NCBI GenBank assembly: GCA_902774125.1
Contig: CACYHD010000013.1
Span: 1 to 35,961, forward strand
Length of the DNA stretch: 35,961 nt
Origin: an uncultured Lachnospiraceae bacterium
Lineage (GTDB): Bacteria > Bacillota > Clostridia > Lachnospirales > Lachnospiraceae
Direction of reading: 5' to 3'
Shown: piece after piece, positions 14,023-20,953 of the stretch
How the letters are laid out: each line of letters starts with the position of its first letter
How positions within the stretch are numbered: position 1 is the stretch's first letter
The notes under the pieces: model-generated
The model's input: the letters and a program-made list of their open reading frames with translations, nothing else
What the model was told of the DNA's origin: nothing
Database searches by the model: none
Program-made: the position numbers and the translations under genes

Positions 14023-14391
14023 TTATTCACATATGGCACATTTTCTAACCGACACCTTGCCGTATTTGCCATTGACATAACGATACTTTTGAGTGACATA
14101 AACATCTAACAACCCTTCCTTGTAATTAACTCCCATTACTTTAATGTTTAGATCACCCTTGCTTCTCAGACTAGTGGCCAAAAGATTAATAAAATGTCCT
14201 ATCATATCTTTATCCGAAGTAATTGAGTTTTGGCCCTGGCTCATAGTTTCTTTGACAGTATGCTTAACTGCTGCTGCCACAGCTCTGTTCAAATCTCTTT
14301 TTCTATTAGTGGTTGATTCCACAGATATAACACTCATTGTGTTAATCATTACTATTACTGCAATTCCTATAAGAACAATAAATTGTTTCAA
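14023..14391 (-). CDS. TadE/F-like membrane-anchored pseudopilin, last gene of the pilus operon
   Basis: The 122-residue protein has an N-terminal hydrophobic helix (MKQFIVLIGIAVIVMINTMS), then charged helices and a beta-rich tail ending YVNGKYGKVSVRKCAICE. Its start directly abuts the stop of the large beta-helix protein, so translation is coupled. The layout (one N-terminal helix, small extracellular domain) resembles minor pilins of Tad systems such as TadE/TadF, but no Glu at the usual mature +5 position is evident. A 33-codon ORF with protein-like composition overlaps its 3' end in another frame (13974-14072). The role as minor pilin is inferred from context. Confidence 0.7.
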   Translation of the reverse strand: MKQFIVLIGIAVIVMINTMSVISVESTTNRKRDLNRAVAAAVKHTVKETMSQGQNSITSDKDMIGHFINLLATSLRSKGDLNIKVMGVNYKEGLLDVYVTQKYRYVNGKYGKVSVRKCAICE

Positions 14392-16938
14392 TCACTCCTT
14401 CACCACCTTTTTTATTTTGCCAGAAAACTGTTTGTTTTCTTTTTTTGTAATCTTATATTTCTTTTTTCTAACAGAAGCCTGTGCTGTCTGTATATCTTCG
14501 TATGTTAGTTCCACCTCGTATTCGTATGTCTCACTATCACTTTTTAGACTCCGTTCTAATTCCTCATACAACTCCTCCTTCCAAATGGAAAAAGGCGCTA
14601 CTGTATCAATGAACTCGTACGAAATAAATCTTACTTCCGTGTGCTTGTACAACCCTTCAAGAATATACACATTCATCTGCTCTGTAACAGTAACATCACC
14701 ACTGTAGCTAGTTGCCTGAAGTGTGAGAGTATATGTCGCACTCTCTTTAGTATTAATATAATTCTGTGTGGACAAATTGCTTCCCTTCGCTATAAGCCTG
14801 CCTTCGTTGTCCTCTATTCTTATGACTCTAACAAAATATGTCACTGCCGTTTTTTGATCATTGGTCACAACAACTTTTCTAGTCAGTTCATCTCTATCCA
14901 AAACAATATTTTGGTCCACGGCATAATACCTGTCCTGAGCTTTCATAAACAATTCCTTAATAGCTATTTCATTCCATATCGCGTAAAGGTCAATATTGCT
15001 ATCCACCAAAATCTTCCCGGACTTGTATGCCAGTCCATCTCCTTGGGCAGTTGTATTCCATGTCATATCGGTATTCAAAACAAACCCATCTCTTGTAATG
15101 TTAGTGGAAACCACGGCAACATACTCATTCCAAAAACCATTTTCATCCTCCGGAAAATTGGCAACAGGATCTAATGAATTGCTATGATATTTGATATCGT
15201 ACAAACGACTTATAATTATATATCTTTTATTGTTTATTCCCTTAATATTCGTAGCATCTCTAAGAGGGATATCTCCTGCAACTACAAACTTTTTTTCAAC
15301 CTTTTCTCCCTTTCTCTCGCTCTCAGGTGTACCGCTGTAATACAACTCCTTAGAAGCCATAGAATCCTTGTAATCCACGTCTACAATTATTGTTCCAGGA
15401 GAAGTTATCGCCGCTTCAACGCGAGCAACATATCCGCTTGTTTTGGCCAATGGTTCTATAACATCTATATGGCGGTCTTTGCATAAGTAAACCATATTGC
15501 TATTGTTTACAAACGCATTCTTTTTGAACTCTAACAATCCGTTTTGATATATGCCTGCACCCCTAGCGCTGTAATTAGCACTAATAGTTCCATCGTCAAT
15601 AACAGCCTTGCCAGTCTCCACAATAGCCATGCCACCGCCGTTGTTTGTAGCTTTATTGTGAATAATATTATGACTACTGAAACTCACACTTCCTATAAGA
15701 AACAATCCACCTCCGCTTGCTTCTGATGTGTTATAAGAAATAGTCGTGTTAGACACCTTCATCATGTTACCGCCTATGCCTTCAACATTGGCAGAAACAT
15801 ATATACCGCCGCCGTATGATACAGCAGAATTATTAGTAATAAACATTGAATCTATATTCACAATAGATTTGTACTTGCTACTCCCCGCACCAATAGAGAT
15901 ACCTCCTCCATTATCTAGAGATTTATTGTCAGTAATAGTGCCACCTCTAAAAAGTGCAGAACCACCACCTTTGCCACTGCCTCCGTTACAGCGAATACCT
16001 CCACCAGCCAACTCAGCTGTGTTGTGAGATATAAGCGGTCCTTTTCCATTAAAGCCGATAATAAGCTTCGCTCCGTATCCGGAAAAAATTCCTCCGGAGG
16101 ACTTGCCCGCTCTGTTTTGATAAATAAGTCCTGATTCGATTCTGCAGTCAGACTCCTCCGTTGCAAAAATAGCTCCACCTTCCTCCTCGGCAAAACAGTC
16201 AGTAATCTTGGAGTCACCTCCCATATTCAGCGCCCCTTGTTCTCCAACATAAATCGCTCCACCCTCTGTGTATGAATAGCAATTATGTATGTTGGCTCCA
16301 TCTTCAATATTCACAATTCCCCCAAGGTTTTTGATAGCTCCACCATTGCCTCCGTAGCAATTAGTGATTTCGCATCTAACTGTCAAATTGCCATAAACTC
16401 TAATAGGGGCAGACTCTGCCATATTCATGCTGTTTTGGGCATCTTTTAACATCGTGTTTTTGTCCAAAACCAAACTCGAATTATTATCTACACAAAATGT
16501 ATCGTTTTGCTGTCTATTGTCAGGAAACGCTCCTCTTGCCCCAACAATGGCAAGCGTCGATCCACGCTCCCCCATATACAACTCAGCTCCGTTGCTGATT
16601 CTTATCATTTTTCTCGGATTATCCGTATCATTGATTGGCGCTGTCCAACCTATTCCTTTTTTTATTTTCCTATCCACTCCCTGCGCATTGATATGAACTA
16701 ATCCTTTTTCAACTCGAACAATGTTAGTAATCGTTATATCCTTTGCTATATCAATGTACATATTAACGCCATCTTTGGCATAGCCCAAAGCCTCATTCAA
16801 GTCCTTTTCGTTTTTCACGACATATGGCGATTGGCTCTTTCCACTTCCGGTCACAGCGCCATAGCAATCTATATTTGCTACAATACATACTCCTATGCTA
16901 AGTACTAAAAGAACACCTATACTTTTTAACCATTTCAT
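14392..16938 (-). CDS. Large secreted beta-helix protein of the pilus operon (putative tip adhesin)
   Basis: The 848-residue product has a signal peptide (MKWLKSIGVLLVLSIGVCIV, cleavage near residue 27). Residues about 60-510 are a right-handed parallel beta-helix with repeated GGAI/GGGI turns (GGNGGAIKN, TEGGAIYVG, EEGGAIFAT, AGGGIRCNG, DNGGGISIG, YGGGIYVSA), as in polymorphic outer-membrane and adhesin-type repeats. Residues about 590-680 resemble an InlB B-repeat (ITRDGFVLNTDMTW, then DSNIDLYAIWNE). The last 165 residues are beta-rich with a Lys-rich end. There is no LPXTG, S-layer domain or transmembrane tail. Being inside the operon, it may be exported by Sec and attach to the filament. 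Function as an adhesin is inference. Confidence 0.75.
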   Translation of the reverse strand: MKWLKSIGVLLVLSIGVCIVANIDCYGAVTGSGKSQSPYVVKNEKDLNEALGYAKDGVNMYIDIAKDITITNIVRVEKGLVHINAQGVDRKIKKGIGWTAPINDTDNPRKMIRISNGAELYMGERGSTLAIVGARGAFPDNRQQNDTFCVDNNSSLVLDKNTMLKDAQNSMNMAESAPIRVYGNLTVRCEITNCYGGNGGAIKNLGGIVNIEDGANIHNCYSYTEGGAIYVGEQGALNMGGDSKITDCFAEEEGGAIFATEESDCRIESGLIYQNRAGKSSGGIFSGYGAKLIIGFNGKGPLISHNTAELAGGGIRCNGGSGKGGGSALFRGGTITDNKSLDNGGGISIGAGSSKYKSIVNIDSMFITNNSAVSYGGGIYVSANVEGIGGNMMKVSNTTISYNTSEASGGGLFLIGSVSFSSHNIIHNKATNNGGGMAIVETGKAVIDDGTISANYSARGAGIYQNGLLEFKKNAFVNNSNMVYLCKDRHIDVIEPLAKTSGYVARVEAAITSPGTIIVDVDYKDSMASKELYYSGTPESERKGEKVEKKFVVAGDIPLRDATNIKGINNKRYIIISRLYDIKYHSNSLDPVANFPEDENGFWNEYVAVVSTNITRDGFVLNTDMTWNTTAQGDGLAYKSGKILVDSNIDLYAIWNEIAIKELFMKAQDRYYAVDQNIVLDRDELTRKVVVTNDQKTAVTYFVRVIRIEDNEGRLIAKGSNLSTQNYINTKESATYTLTLQATSYSGDVTVTEQMNVYILEGLYKHTEVRFISYEFIDTVAPFSIWKEELYEELERSLKSDSETYEYEVELTYEDIQTAQASVRKKKYKITKKENKQFSGKIKKVVKE

Positions 16939-17015
16939 TTATTACCCCCTTTCGTAAAACTTGCGCTTAACTGGCATAACCGCCAACAATGTTTTTCATA
17001 ACCTCTAGCACATTT

Positions 17016-17360
17016 TTATCTGGCATAACCTTCTATCATCGCTTGCTTCTCATAACCACTTCCAAACAAACTAAAAACAGCAAAATCTACATAGTATGTT
17101 AATGTTATATATTTGCTAGGCTGATCTTCATAAATAGTCACATCCTTAACGCTGAGATCATATCCGTTTTTCTTGGCATCATTAACACACTCATTTATTA
17201 TTTGGTCATTACAATTGCTGTCCTCTATTCTGTTGACAACCACGTTGTAGTAATCCTTGGCTCTAGAATCCTGGTTGCTAGAATTGATTATGGATGCAAA
17301 CAAAATGCATGCCAGTGTTACTCCTATAATCATTGAAAAAATTTCTATTGCTATCTTCAT
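17016..17360 (-). CDS. Pseudopilin-like protein (114 residues)
   Basis: A single N-terminal hydrophobic helix (EIFSMIIGVTLACILFASII, residues 6-25) is followed by a soluble part with helix-forming charged residues, two Cys (near 49 and 56) and a beta segment (KYITLTYYVDFAVFSLF). It ends MIEGYAR. The size and layout resemble TadE-like minor pilins. The start lies one base after the stop of the preceding 134-residue gene, so expression is coupled. The two Cys could form a disulfide outside the cell. No family assignment is certain. A 12-base repeat (GGTTATGCCAG then TTAA or ATAA) brackets its 3' end. Confidence 0.65.
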   Translation of the reverse strand: MKIAIEIFSMIIGVTLACILFASIINSSNQDSRAKDYYNVVVNRIEDSNCNDQIINECVNDAKKNGYDLSVKDVTIYEDQPSKYITLTYYVDFAVFSLFGSGYEKQAMIEGYAR

Positions 17361-17361
17361 A

Positions 17362-17766
17362 TTATTCCACCATCACACTTACATACTTGGTGCACACCAT
17401 ACTGTAGTCATTAGTCACCAAACATTTAACTCTGTATATTCCTTTTTTGCTTACATCAACCTGGCCATACGTCTTAACATTGGACGTAATATCCTTGCCA
17501 TCCCAATCCTTGGCTTTGATATGCTGACTCACATCAAAACTGGCATCATTATAATCAGCATATATAATATCTCCCACCTGGATTGAGGGATGCTTATCTT
17601 TATTGGCATTGGCAAAACTGCTGCTGTCAGAACTTATCGCCACATTATAAACGGGCGTTATAGTTTTCCACTTAGTGACCAAAACAACACCAATTAAAGC
17701 CACAGTAAGAGTTCCTATAATTCCGTACAATAAAGCTTCTCCGTGTTCATTCAAAAAAAGCTGCAT
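17362..17766 (-). CDS. EHG-motif pilin-like protein with extracellular domain (134 residues)
   Basis: The protein starts MQLFLNEHGEALLYGI and continues with a hydrophobic helix to about residue 32, then an extracellular part of about 100 residues, beta-rich and Ser/Asp-rich near residues 42-60. The short segment FLNEHG before the helix is shared with the 57-, 45- and 34-residue proteins of this operon, suggesting a common origin of their N-termini. The C-terminal part (GIYRVKCLVTNDYSMVCTKY) looks like an Ig-like or bacterial-Ig strand pattern with two Cys. GGGGGAG precedes the ATG. It may be a capping or minor subunit. The function is inferred from context only. Confidence 0.65.
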   Translation of the reverse strand: MQLFLNEHGEALLYGIIGTLTVALIGVVLVTKWKTITPVYNVAISSDSSSFANANKDKHPSIQVGDIIYADYNDASFDVSQHIKAKDWDGKDITSNVKTYGQVDVSKKGIYRVKCLVTNDYSMVCTKYVSVMVE

Positions 17767-17777
17767 AAACTCCCCCT

Positions 17778-17915
17778 CTAGCCAATTATTTCTCCGAAGG
17801 CCACTAGGTCAAGATTGCTCAAAACCCAAGTTACAATAAACAAAAGCATCACTACACTTACAGCTACTATTCCACTAAGCAAAATACTTCCATGTTCCAC
17901 TACAAACTCTTCCAT
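17778..17915 (-). CDS. Tiny EHG-motif pilin-like membrane protein (45 residues)
   Basis: This gene is too short for normal cut-offs but has a strong GGAGGAAGTT ribosome site directly before the ATG and sits in phase in the operon. The protein starts MEEFVVEHGSILLSGI, has one hydrophobic helix (about residues 10-33) and a short tail (SNLDLVAFGEIIG). The EHG motif and following hydrophobic pattern match its neighbours. It contains no basic residue before the helix and no class III signal-peptide pattern. It is probably a filament subunit or a small platform partner. Confidence 0.65.
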   Translation of the reverse strand: MEEFVVEHGSILLSGIVAVSVVMLLFIVTWVLSNLDLVAFGEIIG

Positions 17916-17924
17916 AACTTCCTC

Positions 17925-18022
17925 CTATCCTGTCACCACATCAACACGTGATAACATATTGATCTATCCTGTCACCTCATCAACGTGTGACAACATATTG
18001 TCTATCCTGTCACCACATCAAG
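17925..18022 (-). repeat. 38-39-bp tandem repeat duplicating the end of a tiny pilin gene
   Basis: About 2.6 copies are present. On the minus strand each contains GTTGATGTGGTGACAGGATA or a close variant, with the conserved TAG triplets at 17925, 17964 and 18002 (spacing 39 and 38). The first copy is the real 3' end of the 34-residue gene; the next two carry ATG-initiated 10-residue frames (17964-17996 and 17925-17957) ending in the same VTG. Each copy can also fold via GTCAC/GTGAC arms. Confidence 0.75.
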
Positions 18023-18106
18023 TACGTGGTAAAATCCTGCTACAATTAACAAGAAAAAAATTCCAATTATAATACACTGTCCCAACTCACTCAACAAATA
18101 CTTCAT
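18002..18106 (-). CDS. Tiny EHG-like pilin-like membrane protein (34 residues)
   Basis: The frame opens MKYLLSELGQCIIIGIFFLL and ends with a short tail (VLDVVTG). TTAGGGAG precedes the ATG and the gene starts 10 bases after the stop of the TadBC-like gene, so it is well placed for translation. Its N-terminus aligns with the EHG proteins, with Leu in place of His (ELG). With only 34 residues it is almost all membrane helix. It could be the major filament subunit, like the very short Flp pilins, or a regulatory peptide of the platform. The tandem repeat array begins in its last codons. Confidence 0.6.
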   Translation of the reverse strand: MKYLLSELGQCIIIGIFFLLIVAGFYHVLDVVTG

Positions 18107-18116
18107 AACTTTCTCC

Positions 18117-19430
18117 CTAATTCAAAACGTTACCTATAGACGATGTAAATACTGATATCATTAAAACCATATCAACCATAATCTTCACGACTCCTAATAT
18201 CATAGGCAACGAGGCATACATCGCTGAGGCTCCTATTCTATCTTGCATTTTCATTTCCTCTGCGTGACCTGCCAGCTTATTGTTGCGATCGATAATAGAA
18301 CTAATCTGTTCTTTGGCCTCGTCCTTTCCTAGCTCATTAATTGAATAAAACATCTTCATTGAAGATTTGACCTCGTCTAGTTCAAACTCCACAAGCAAGT
18401 TATCGTAAGGCTCAATGCCTACCGGATATTTCTCGAAGTCAATCAACAATTTTCTAATAGGCCTCTTCAGTACAAACGGTGCTCGCTCATAAGAATTTTC
18501 AATAGCAGATTGAACTGTATCGTTTTGGAGATTCATCGCAACTTCCCTAATCCAGTCCGGAAAATATTTTTGGAGTTCCTTCTCCAGTCTCTTTTTTATT
18601 TTTTTATACGACAGTTTTTCGCTGATTTTGAGACTCTTGTAATCTCTAAATCCTTGCTCAACAACGTTGTAATATCTCATAACCTGATTGTCACTAAGAC
18701 CTTTGCCCTCCTCTAGCCAGTCTATGTTCATTTTTTGAGTCACAAGATAATACGATGCCATCATCAAAACAATAAGTATAGTTGAGCAAAGTTGATAAAC
18801 TCCGTTAGATGTATACTTGTATTGGGCAGGCACCAAGTATGCTATAAATCCACAAGTTATCAACGTAGAAAAAATCGATATCAAAACGTTTCGCTTAACT
18901 CTTGCTACGTTCTGGATAAAAATCAGCATCCTGTCATTCCAATCCTTGATATCCTTGAGAATAATGTTGATATAGTTTTCGTATTCTCCGCCTCTAAGTT
19001 CTACCTTAATCAAAAACTCATGCAGTGATTTAATCCTCTTGCACTTGAATCTTTCTTCTATAAGGCCAAGTGCTTCCTTGTATATATTTTCGGACTCCTT
19101 GTTGTCAATCATATCTTCAACCTGCTCGATTAGTTTTTTGATATTATCATTTCCAACCTTCCTAGCATCCTCAAGAGCTAATCTTATTTTGGGGCGTTTT
19201 TTGAAGGAATACACCATCTGCTCCATATACAAAACCGCACTTTTGAACTCCTCTAAATAATGGAGTCTCTTCTTTTCTTGTATTTCAAAAAAATAGTTAA
19301 AAACAATTGACGCCGCAATACAAATCAAAAACGATATAGGGTTAAGCTTATATCCCAGGCAGGTCAATGCCACTACAACTATTACTTTTATTGAGTTAGT
19401 TAATAAATTTTTTATTTTTTTCTTAGACAA
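18117..19430 (-). CDS. TadB/TadC-like (GspF-domain) pilus platform protein, apparently fused
   Basis: The 437-residue membrane protein is the likely inner-membrane platform that couples the ATPase to filament assembly. Hydrophobic segments lie near residues 14-48, 190-230 and 400-430. Two cytoplasmic T2SSF-like helical regions are visible: AVLYMEQMVYSFKKRPKIRL to about 185, and a second with FPDWIREVAMNLQNDTVQSA, APFVLKRPIRKLLIDFEKYP, SSMKMFYSINELGKDEA. Tad systems normally encode TadB and TadC separately, so one protein with both halves suggests a compact fusion. The start is TTG, with GAGGA 8 bases upstream and no nearby ATG that keeps the N-terminal helix. Confidence 0.82.
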   Translation of the reverse strand: MSKKKIKNLLTNSIKVIVVVALTCLGYKLNPISFLICIAASIVFNYFFEIQEKKRLHYLEEFKSAVLYMEQMVYSFKKRPKIRLALEDARKVGNDNIKKLIEQVEDMIDNKESENIYKEALGLIEERFKCKRIKSLHEFLIKVELRGGEYENYINIILKDIKDWNDRMLIFIQNVARVKRNVLISIFSTLITCGFIAYLVPAQYKYTSNGVYQLCSTILIVLMMASYYLVTQKMNIDWLEEGKGLSDNQVMRYYNVVEQGFRDYKSLKISEKLSYKKIKKRLEKELQKYFPDWIREVAMNLQNDTVQSAIENSYERAPFVLKRPIRKLLIDFEKYPVGIEPYDNLLVEFELDEVKSSMKMFYSINELGKDEAKEQISSIIDRNNKLAGHAEEMKMQDRIGASAMYASLPMILGVVKIMVDMVLMISVFTSSIGNVLN

Positions 19431-19446
19431 CTTTTAATCCTCGCTA

Positions 19447-20457
19447 TTAAGTTATTACAAAGGGATCCTCAATCCCTGCTAATTGGAATTTGCGCATTAT
19501 GTCTTCTGGCAAATTCTTCGTTAATATCTTTCCATCTTCATAAATCATGACCTTGGTGTTTTTCTCATCTATTCTCGACATACACATTACCTGCGCAATG
19601 CGCCTAGTGATTTTTTCACCATCCTTGACGACGGACTCAAGTTGGACACCGAGGTCTATAAAAGAATAGACGTCATTTTTATTAATACTCTCTCCCATGT
19701 TTCTCAAACGATCAGGAATCTTGCTCGCATCATCGAGATGCAAAGTGGTGAGACAATGTACACCTGCCGAAATGTTTTCAAGCAAATATTTAACCTCCTT
19801 GCCTCTTGTTTCTGCGAGCAACACCCATGTCGGCAACTGTCTCTTACTTGCCTTAAGAGCACTAGAATATCCAAAACTATCGCTAATCTTAATCTCTACA
19901 CAATCCTTGCCCGGATTAATTGCAGAGTATCTTAGTTCTAGATTATCCTCAATTGTATAGACTCTCTCGTAATCCGGAATATAGGATGTTAAATATTTGA
20001 CATACTCCGTCTTGCCTACACCCGGAAGGCCTCCTACAACAACTGTGCAATGGGCCTTTATTGCGTTTTGCATAAAGCAGTCTATCTGAGCCGTACAATA
20101 ATCACTGCTAATTATTTTTTCCTGAGTGATTCTTCGCACAGCTGGAGTTTTTCTTATACTGATACTTGTTCCTGTATTCGTCACAGATTCGTGGAGAATA
20201 GAAATTCTCAGGCTGTCAGTCTCGGCTTCTAACAAAGGATTATTAATATTGAATTGTACGTTCATTAAGTTAGATATTCGTGTGTAAAATTGTTTGATAA
20301 AATTTTCTTCAAGCTCAAAGCCTTCAATCTTATACCTGCCTTTATTAAGGTCATTGACCCATAATGACTGACTCCAATTAATATCTGTTATATTATCATC
20401 TTCAATATATTCCAATAATGGACCGTAGGCTCTATTGGGCAAAGTCAGTTTACGCAT
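19447..20457 (-). CDS. CpaF/TadA-like secretion ATPase
   Basis: The 336-residue hexameric ATPase is expected to power filament assembly at the cytoplasmic face. It has the N-terminal domain seen in VirB11/CpaF proteins (SLWVNDLNKGRYKIEG, then SLRISILHESVTNTGTSISI, RKTPAVRRITQEKI), Walker A GLPGVGKT (143-150), the Asp-box region TIEDNLELR (169-177), a Walker B-like LLAETRGKE (with Glu216) and the His-box GVHCLTTLH (233-241). It is shorter than typical CpaF (about 450) because the leading helical region is absent. GGAGG lies 6 bases before the ATG. It is followed by the TadBC-like gene after 16 bases. Confidence 0.9.
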   Translation of the reverse strand: MRKLTLPNRAYGPLLEYIEDDNITDINWSQSLWVNDLNKGRYKIEGFELEENFIKQFYTRISNLMNVQFNINNPLLEAETDSLRISILHESVTNTGTSISIRKTPAVRRITQEKIISSDYCTAQIDCFMQNAIKAHCTVVVGGLPGVGKTEYVKYLTSYIPDYERVYTIEDNLELRYSAINPGKDCVEIKISDSFGYSSALKASKRQLPTWVLLAETRGKEVKYLLENISAGVHCLTTLHLDDASKIPDRLRNMGESINKNDVYSFIDLGVQLESVVKDGEKITRRIAQVMCMSRIDEKNTKVMIYEDGKILTKNLPEDIMRKFQLAGIEDPFVIT

Positions 20458-20480
20458 ACATTCCTCCTGATACTAATCAA

Positions 20481-20654
20481 CTAATGAATCTTTCCTGCAA
20501 CCGAATCGAATGAAACGGATGAGGAATATCCATCTACTACGCCCTTAACTGCATCGGCAATAATTGGGCCAACAACATAGGCAACACCAACTAGCAACAG
20601 AATACAAACTGCCACAAATATAGTTTTGCCATGTTCTTGCAAAAACACATCCAT
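20481..20654 (-). CDS. EHG-motif pilin-like protein, first gene of the pilus operon (57 residues)
   Basis: This short gene has GGAGGAAG 6 bases before its ATG and is the first frame after the operon promoter. The protein starts MDVFLQEHGKTIFVAV, with a hydrophobic helix to about residue 34, then an amphipathic segment (IIADAVKGVVDGY) and a Ser-rich tail. The size and single-helix layout resemble Flp-type major pilins, but the Glu stands before the Gly rather than five residues after it, so the usual TadV/PilD cleavage pattern is not seen. Promoter-proximal position suggests it is the most abundant product and possibly the main subunit; that is inference. Confidence 0.68.
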   Translation of the reverse strand: MDVFLQEHGKTIFVAVCILLLVGVAYVVGPIIADAVKGVVDGYSSSVSFDSVAGKIH

Positions 20655-20850: not shown

Positions 20851-20953
20851 TTTTATGTAAACAAGCCCGTAAAACAGTGTATGTAACATTCATGCTTTTA
20901 TGTCAATCGGCGCCAAAAACAGCGTATGTAACATTCATGCTTTTATGTCAATC
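20851..20953 (-). repeat. 45-bp tandem repeat upstream of the pilus promoter
   Basis: Two copies of a 38-base unit at 20871-20908 and 20916-20953 differ at one base. TTTTATGT[C/A]AA recurs at 20851, 20896 and 20941, exactly 45 bases apart, so the element nearest the promoter is a partial third copy. Within a unit, TGACAT and ATGTTA on the minus strand form an imperfect inverted repeat. This is the likely binding region of a regulator. Confidence 0.65.

Follow-up and report, generated by a model that had tools for sequence, protein, structure and literature searches.

What kind of machine is built by nine closely packed genes in the genome of an uncultured Lachnospiraceae bacterium? The genes lie on the minus strand, from position 20654 down to 14023, of a stretch of DNA (hereafter the window) that is an entire contig, C13 (35961 bp), of a 1.9 Mb assembly that is 92.7% complete. 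An initial annotation had described them as a compact Tad-like operon with minimal gaps and very short pilin-like proteins. Our analysis reproduced its coordinates for all nine open reading frames (ORFs; w1 to w9), with intergenic gaps of 0-23 nt and two exceptions of 86 and 77 nt. The nine ORFs are not chance occurrences, because other genera contain relatives of them arranged in the same way, and these same-order relatives, together with the families of one-helix proteins recovered below, bear out the description. We conclude that the operon probably specifies a distant relative of the Tad (Flp, type IVc) pilus, namely a compact type IV filament machine that presents a modular adhesin or enzyme. 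The cluster is a new variant within the type IV filament kind, and full-text literature searches, with most subscription journals outside their coverage, returned no description of it.

The second gene, w2 (19447-20457, 336 residues), encodes the motor ATPase. It matched the Pfam family T2SSE (PF00437) with 65.9 bits (cut-off 24.9; E = 3e-18), its profile aligned with CpaF at an HHalign probability of 99.8, in agreement with the CpaF-like ATPase originally proposed, and CpaF, VirB11-type and archaeal T2SSE structures in the PDB were matched at E-values of 1e-29 to 1e-32. The score remained under the threshold of the CpaF/TadA family (TIGR03819, 73.2 bits against a cut-off of 373), and the best NCBIfam model was VirB11, with 86 bits under a cut-off of 250. 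In a tree containing 30 of 103 cluster ATPases (the first 30 of a thinned set of 40), these proteins formed their own clade, apart from 21 canonical CpaF sequences. By its sequence, w2 is placed on the CpaF/VirB11 side, not with PilB/GspE.

The adjacent w3 (18117-19430, 437 residues) is the inner-membrane platform, for which a fused TadBC protein had been suggested. Both halves matched the TadB profile (HHalign probabilities of 96 and 94), whereas their probabilities against TadC were 1.6 and 7.9; the TadB and TadC profiles align with each other at 99.8. A fusion of the tadB and tadC genes is therefore unsupported, since both halves are TadB-like and neither is TadC-like, while the presence of two T2SSF-type domains is upheld. 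In the structural model of w3, residues 58-168 span the entire N-domains of PilC and OutF, which ranked first and second among 943 chains by Z-score, although these scores were tied with those of unrelated helical chains; SpoIIIAB also turned up among the structural matches. Pfam T2SSF was found in 5 of 39 members of the platform family (best E = 1e-4), and Foldseek with the platform model returned nothing at an E-value of 0.001. The clusters that we inspected have one two-domain platform, not separate TadB and TadC, and w3 is better called a two-domain GspF/PilC-type platform. Profile and structure matches agree on a motor and platform of the CpaF/GspF type, and computation establishes the homology of both.

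How widely is this arrangement conserved? The w3 platform sequence found matches in 36 of 299 genomes of the family at an E-value of 1e-5, and a 39-row platform profile recovered the identical 36 at 1e-10. In a sample of the class, 4 of 391 genomes were positive, two of them from other families, and in a phylum sample of 269 genomes the window's own genome was the sole positive; the cluster is rare beyond the family. It was recognised in 35 of 298 sampled genera. A peptide pattern from the ATPase found 243 stretches encoding w2 relatives in named genomes, not all of which need belong to this cluster, and the best 80 of the 243 were retrieved. The matches include Lactonifactor longoviformis, Robinsoniella peoriensis, Faecalicatena, Anaerostipes, Roseburia and Agathobacter, as well as Dielma fastidiosa and Erysipelotrichaceae metagenome-assembled genomes.

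Gene order is conserved as well. Of 121 loci, 120 had a platform relative; with 10 duplicates and the one locus lacking a platform set aside, the total is 110 or 109 clusters depending on the bit cut-off. Among 110 non-redundant clusters, the ATPase gene sits next to the platform gene in 104, a w7-type gene follows in 97 and a w9-type gene is found in 90, these counts depending on a simple script based on ORFs and ribosome-binding sites that mis-set some starts and missed some genes. The usual order is w1, ATPase and platform, then w4, w5 and w6 with w7 preceding or trailing them, and finally w9 and the large gene, either one first; a subset has the large gene upstream of w1. The genes on either side of the set in the window are unrelated to it, as originally noted and as judged by eye, flanking genes vary between relatives, and a terminator-like stem-loop at 21134-21104 separates w1-w9 from the upstream gene. 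The missing Tad genes do not lie just beyond the set, and an ordinary Tad locus split by the window is ruled out by these unrelated and variable flanks.

The same sporadic distribution and changing flanks would fit horizontal transfer and bear on a further explanation, an apparatus linked to a mobile element or to conjugation, for which the VirB11 model as best NCBIfam score of the ATPase also speaks. We consider this very improbable: by eye, with no family search made, no relaxase, coupling protein or integrase was seen near the clusters inspected, and mobile-type CpaF loci of the family (L138-L142) differ in gene content and have ATPases on other branches.

The candidate pilins are very short. 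w1 (20481-20654, 57 residues from its ATG), a one-helix protein, is the candidate major (Flp-like) pilin; the one-helix proteins w4 (18002-18106, 34 residues) and w5 (17778-17915, 45 residues) start with M-x6-E-L-G and M-x6-E-H-G, and w6 (17362-17766, 134 residues) combines the M-x6-E start of w1, w4 and w5 with a C-terminal immunoglobulin (Ig)-like domain (PF16403, 27.5 bits, cut-off 27). The one-helix proteins of the clusters comprise about 34-65 residues and have a common fixed start, M-x6-E-Y/H-G, which goes beyond the initial annotation. In 227 ORFs selected regardless of motif, glutamate occupies position 7 in 174, Y is found at position 8 in 125 and H in 42, and position 9 has G in 203, S in 8 and A in 4; a set filtered by the start motif gives G at position 9 in 267 of 292, and we prefer the unfiltered count of 203 in 227. 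For profiles and motif counts, distinct sequences were picked by size and start motif (68 of the w1 type, 71 of the 34-residue type, 67 of the 45-residue type and 74 of the w6 type), and a few of them may be spurious ORFs. The w1 profile aligned with canonical Flp at an HHalign probability of 82, compared with less than 8 for unrelated control pairs, and with the w4-type and w5-type profiles at 95.9 and 97.5. Against the PDB, two Tad pilins ranked as its top two matches, weakly (E = 0.082 and 0.36). w1, w4 and w5 had no Pfam or NCBIfam match above cut-off, and w1 no Pfam match at an E-value of 1.

Are these proteins processed as prepilins? We applied a PilFind-type rule, [GAS]-x4-[DE] followed by 14 uncharged residues, taken from Imam et al. 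(PMC3244431), to the first 60 residues of 470 cluster candidates, and just 4 carried the motif: 4 of 67 proteins of the 45-residue type, and none of 68 w1-type, 71 34-residue, 74 w6-type, 100 w7-type or 90 w9-type proteins. In controls from 21 canonical loci, the motif was present within the first 100 residues of 18 of 19 Flp and 22 of 28 TadE-like proteins (40 of 47), and in none of 18 DUF5702-type proteins. Two alignments of w1 imply different readings of its start. HHalign, with local Flp sequences, matches EYG to the acidic stretch that closes the leader, although shifted by one residue from the glycine at the cut site, which on that view would mean a short leader and loss of E5. When HMMER compares the w1 profile with solved Tad pilins, EYG falls on E5-Y6-G7 of the mature chains; since the solved chains lack leaders, the leader-end register could not score in this comparison. 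PMC11067988 describes the Glu-Tyr pair of Tad pilins as conserved and required for assembly.

Following the HMMER register, the pilins may be "born mature", a proposal that we advance only tentatively: the genes of w1, w4, w5, w6 and w7 would begin at, or two residues ahead of, the mature N-terminus, with E7-Y8-G9 of the w1, w4, w5 and w6 types as the counterpart of mature E5-Y6-G7, and a prepilin peptidase would therefore not be needed. The helix of the w7 model, which begins at residue 2, fits this proposal; position 6 of 100 w7 homologues is glutamate in 46 and lysine in 32, and the lysine weighs against it. The HHalign register leads to a different explanation, which we regard as a real possibility although we do not prefer it, namely an ordinary but divergent Tad pilus. 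Its subunits would be Flp prepilins with a short leader ending in E-Y-G and cut at G9, cleaved in trans by the TadV of a second locus or by a peptidase encoded near ilvC, with only the position-5 glutamate lost. The residues found at position 9 (G, S or A in 203, 8 and 4 of 227) are those that PilFind allows at the cut site (PMC3244431), and HHalign puts EYG at the acidic leader end, albeit one residue off. On the other hand, the start nearly always comprises nine residues, while 17 canonical Flp leaders, as called, range from 11 to 41, and the prepilin motif occurs in none of 190 w7-type and w9-type proteins.

The peptidase complement of the same genomes bears on cleavage in trans. The initial annotation had seen no TadV, TadZ, CpaB or separate TadB and TadC; this holds for the locus, but elsewhere in the genome, on contig C7, there is a canonical Tad locus with CpaF, TadB, TadC, TadE-like, TadV and TadZ-like genes (names other than T2SSE and A24 assigned by reading) and an 83-residue Flp in which the leader and E5 are present. 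Within the locus, phmmer with the genome's own TadZ found no cluster match in the window and 38 loci, and CpaB/RcpC was not recognised in the cluster by eye, no model search having been made. None of the A24 matches of the 36 cluster-positive family genomes fell inside the retrieved cluster regions, yet every one of the 86 genomes tested that bear the ATPase or the platform (36 + 50) had at least one A24 peptidase. A gene for an orphan TadV-like prepilin peptidase was observed in the window's genome at C17:71504-71800 (L246 7517-7903); such a gene, outside pilus loci and on the leuC/leuD-ilvC side of a conserved region of amino-acid biosynthesis genes, is present in this and three other genomes (L245-L248; the L247 contig stops short of full ilvC). 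Given the second Tad locus, the orphan TadV and the ubiquity of A24 peptidases, the absence of TadV, TadZ and others from the locus is no evidence that they are missing from the cell. MSH loci without a peptidase are described by Denise et al. 2019 (PMC6668835).

The A24 peptidase in 86 of 86 genomes is a point in favour of the divergent Tad pilus. Its presence is hardly informative, because canonical CpaF was found, at an E-value of 1e-60, in 289 of the 299 genomes of the family; the co-occurrence of cluster and canonical Tad (36 of 36 cluster-positive against 253 of 263 negative genomes, Fisher p 0.6) was accordingly set aside as a sign of shared parts. We also sought peptidase independence in a genome devoid of A24 peptidases, and none was found among the 86. 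Lachnospira sp. UBA3790 (G681) points the opposite way: no T2SSE protein other than its cluster ATPase exceeds the cut-off and canonical TadC has no match, yet one orphan TadV-like peptidase is kept, which favours processing in trans. In a closed genome of the window's genus (G282) the only peptidase is that of the Tad locus, which counts against the divergent Tad pilus but is compatible with sharing.

What would such a filament carry? The large protein w8 (14392-16938, 848 residues) is secreted and rich in GG-containing repeats; at its C-terminus (window 14404-14841) lies a conserved domain with the signature VRFISxxYxxTLxxxSxW, a second feature beyond the initial annotation. The domain occurs in 79 of 109 clusters. 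Full-length matches, hand-chosen at E-values of 1e-10 or lower and extending beyond model position 100 (31 genomes), were found in 30 of 36 cluster-positive against 1 of 263 cluster-negative genomes (299 in total). The corresponding Fisher value, 4e-34, is inflated, since the profile was built in part from sequences of 24 of the 30 positive genomes; with the contributing genomes excluded, the fairer count is 6 of 12 against 1 of 263 (p 1e-8), and the link of the large protein to the cluster stands. In the sole cluster-negative genome with the domain (G001), a w9-type gene adjoins the match on a 4.4-kb contig, and the cluster may simply be unassembled, as the genome is 74% complete. In three further genomes (G038, G122 and G143) the large gene is missing from the retrieved cluster and a gene with the C-terminal domain lies elsewhere. 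Only the RFIS-W half of the domain is specific, because the first half is a common Ig-type repeat present in many genomes: the first 67 profile positions matched Ig/cadherin-type PDB chains, collagenase chains among others, and the RFIS-W half had no match among PDB sequences.

The remaining chain varies. In the seven large proteins looked up, it contains ChW repeats, Listeria-Bacteroides repeats, beta-helix, thioester or subtilase domains. The beta-helix that had been assigned to w8 was not confirmed: w8 matched no Pfam family at an E-value of 1 and nothing over cut-off in NCBIfam, although one relative, L067, passes the Beta_helix cut-off and another, L055, remains under it. The subtilase or thioester domains in the variable parts of L048:634-4695 and L046:10017-13787 suggest that the putative cargo includes enzymes as well as adhesins.

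The gene after w8, w9 (14023-14391, 122 residues), encodes an anchored protein that is its probable carrier. In three loci (L047, L203 and L207) an N-terminal w9-type domain and the large C-domain protein form a single chain, which is the strongest sign, on sequence grounds, that the two work together; the L203 and L207 fusions are 47% identical and may represent one event because they are related, and L047 is distant. DUF5411 was touched by 8 of 42 w9 homologues (best E = 8e-5). w7 (17016-17360, 114 residues) is pilin-shaped, has no leader and is a TadE-like candidate. Its AlphaFold model (pLDDT 92.7) consists of a 46-residue helix, beginning at residue 2, a short helix and three strands, and had no significant PDB match and no Foldseek match at an E-value of 0.001. 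HHalign aligned w7 with one TadE-like family at a probability of 48 and with the other at 5.6, the remaining cluster proteins scoring lower, and neither w7 nor w9 had a Pfam or NCBIfam match above cut-off.

Taken together, the inventory of parts, the fusions and the genetic link are consistent with a compact filament or pseudopilus, related to Tad, on which w9 presents a modular surface protein. In the mechanism that we propose, the ATPase w2 would drive the platform w3, which would raise w1 helices from the membrane to build a thin filament or a short pseudopilus; priming it and forming its tip would fall to w4-w7 and w9. The large protein would leave the cell by Sec and its C-terminal domain would dock onto w9, so that the filament would expose interchangeable cargo, an adhesin or an enzyme, on the surface of a single-membrane cell. 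Retraction, if any, would be powered by the same ATPase, as in Tad. We infer filament formation, docking and adhesion from this arrangement of parts. A machine that forms no filament is the less probable, and in our view rather unlikely, explanation of the same parts: a membrane assembly powered by a GspE/GspF pair, SpoIIIAA/AB-like or a short pseudopilus piston, would position or push out the large protein. The 34-residue subunits are little beyond one membrane helix, SpoIIIAB is among the platform matches, and GspE/GspF-like pairs without pilins exist. Against this, w1 resembles Flp pilins, the mature 45-residue Flp of Caulobacter forms filaments, and w6 and w7 have pilin-style outer domains.

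How, then, does the favoured filament machine relate to known systems? The cluster shares with the Tad pilus a CpaF-side ATPase, very short Flp-like pilins without a beta domain and a TadE-shaped minor component, and solved Tad pilins carry E-Y-G at mature positions 5-7. It differs in its one two-domain platform in place of TadB and TadC, in the lack of TadV in the locus and of the prepilin motif in the candidate pilins, in its dedicated large secreted partner, and in a gene order and ATPase clade distinct from the canonical locus of the same genomes. With several Tad traits wanting, the cluster is not classed as Tad. A single platform is also found in type IVa pilus, type II secretion and Com systems, where PilC, GspF and ComGB each have two T2SSF domains; unlike in those systems, the cluster ATPase lies on the CpaF/VirB11 side, not that of PilB/GspE, and long pilins are absent. 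Kil/Tad pili (Herrou et al. 2025, PMC12075869) likewise combine exchangeable tip modules with a Tad-type filament, but their variable part lies in minor pilins, whereas in the cluster variation resides mostly in a protein secreted separately, and the large proteins of the cluster have a common C-terminal domain, anchor-fused in three loci. The Gram-positive tad-like loci of Imam et al. 2011 (PMC3244431) also contain no protein with an apparent prepilin signal motif; they have tadV, tadZ and rcpC homologues, whereas here there is no TadV and TadZ/RcpC were not recognised.

Many gut bacteria have a small, conserved Tad cousin; its tiny subunits are without the customary signature of pilin processing, and its apparent purpose is the display of large surface proteins of modular build. 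Among the major commensals of the gut are the Lachnospiraceae, and to our knowledge little is known of their adhesion machines. A discrete cluster, with a conserved docking-type domain that can mark cargo elsewhere in the genome, makes the surface repertoire partly searchable. If the pilins indeed need no processing, a type IV filament could do without a step considered general to this kind of structure, and the nine-gene set could rank among the smallest reconstitutable filament machines.

Several further observations were made around the cluster. Promoter-like sites in the window showed no excess over shuffled sequence, and an Rfam search of it gave no match. The long intergenic region upstream of w1 contains two 45-bp direct repeats (window 20851-20940, 82%), possible regulatory sites, and the end of the 34-residue gene w4 occurs in three 20-bp direct repeat copies (window 17925-18021, 95-100% identical) in the gap before w5. 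Loci L138-L142 add to the family's CpaF-like loci a further, third type, with conjugation-type neighbours (by eye) and a peptidase in some and an unrelated gene order. Three genomes (G224, G252 and G103) each have two diverged copies of the cluster. Finally, 11 of the 121 loci, including one duplicate, have a conserved accessory gene of 273-324 residues (for example L050 2440-3324 and L190 6361-7182); in the 10 of them with a platform gene, it precedes that gene by three or four genes on the upstream side, and its start resembles a ParA/MinD-type P-loop by eye, with a TadZ profile probability of 2 and an AAA_31 E-value of 0.041, below the cut-off.

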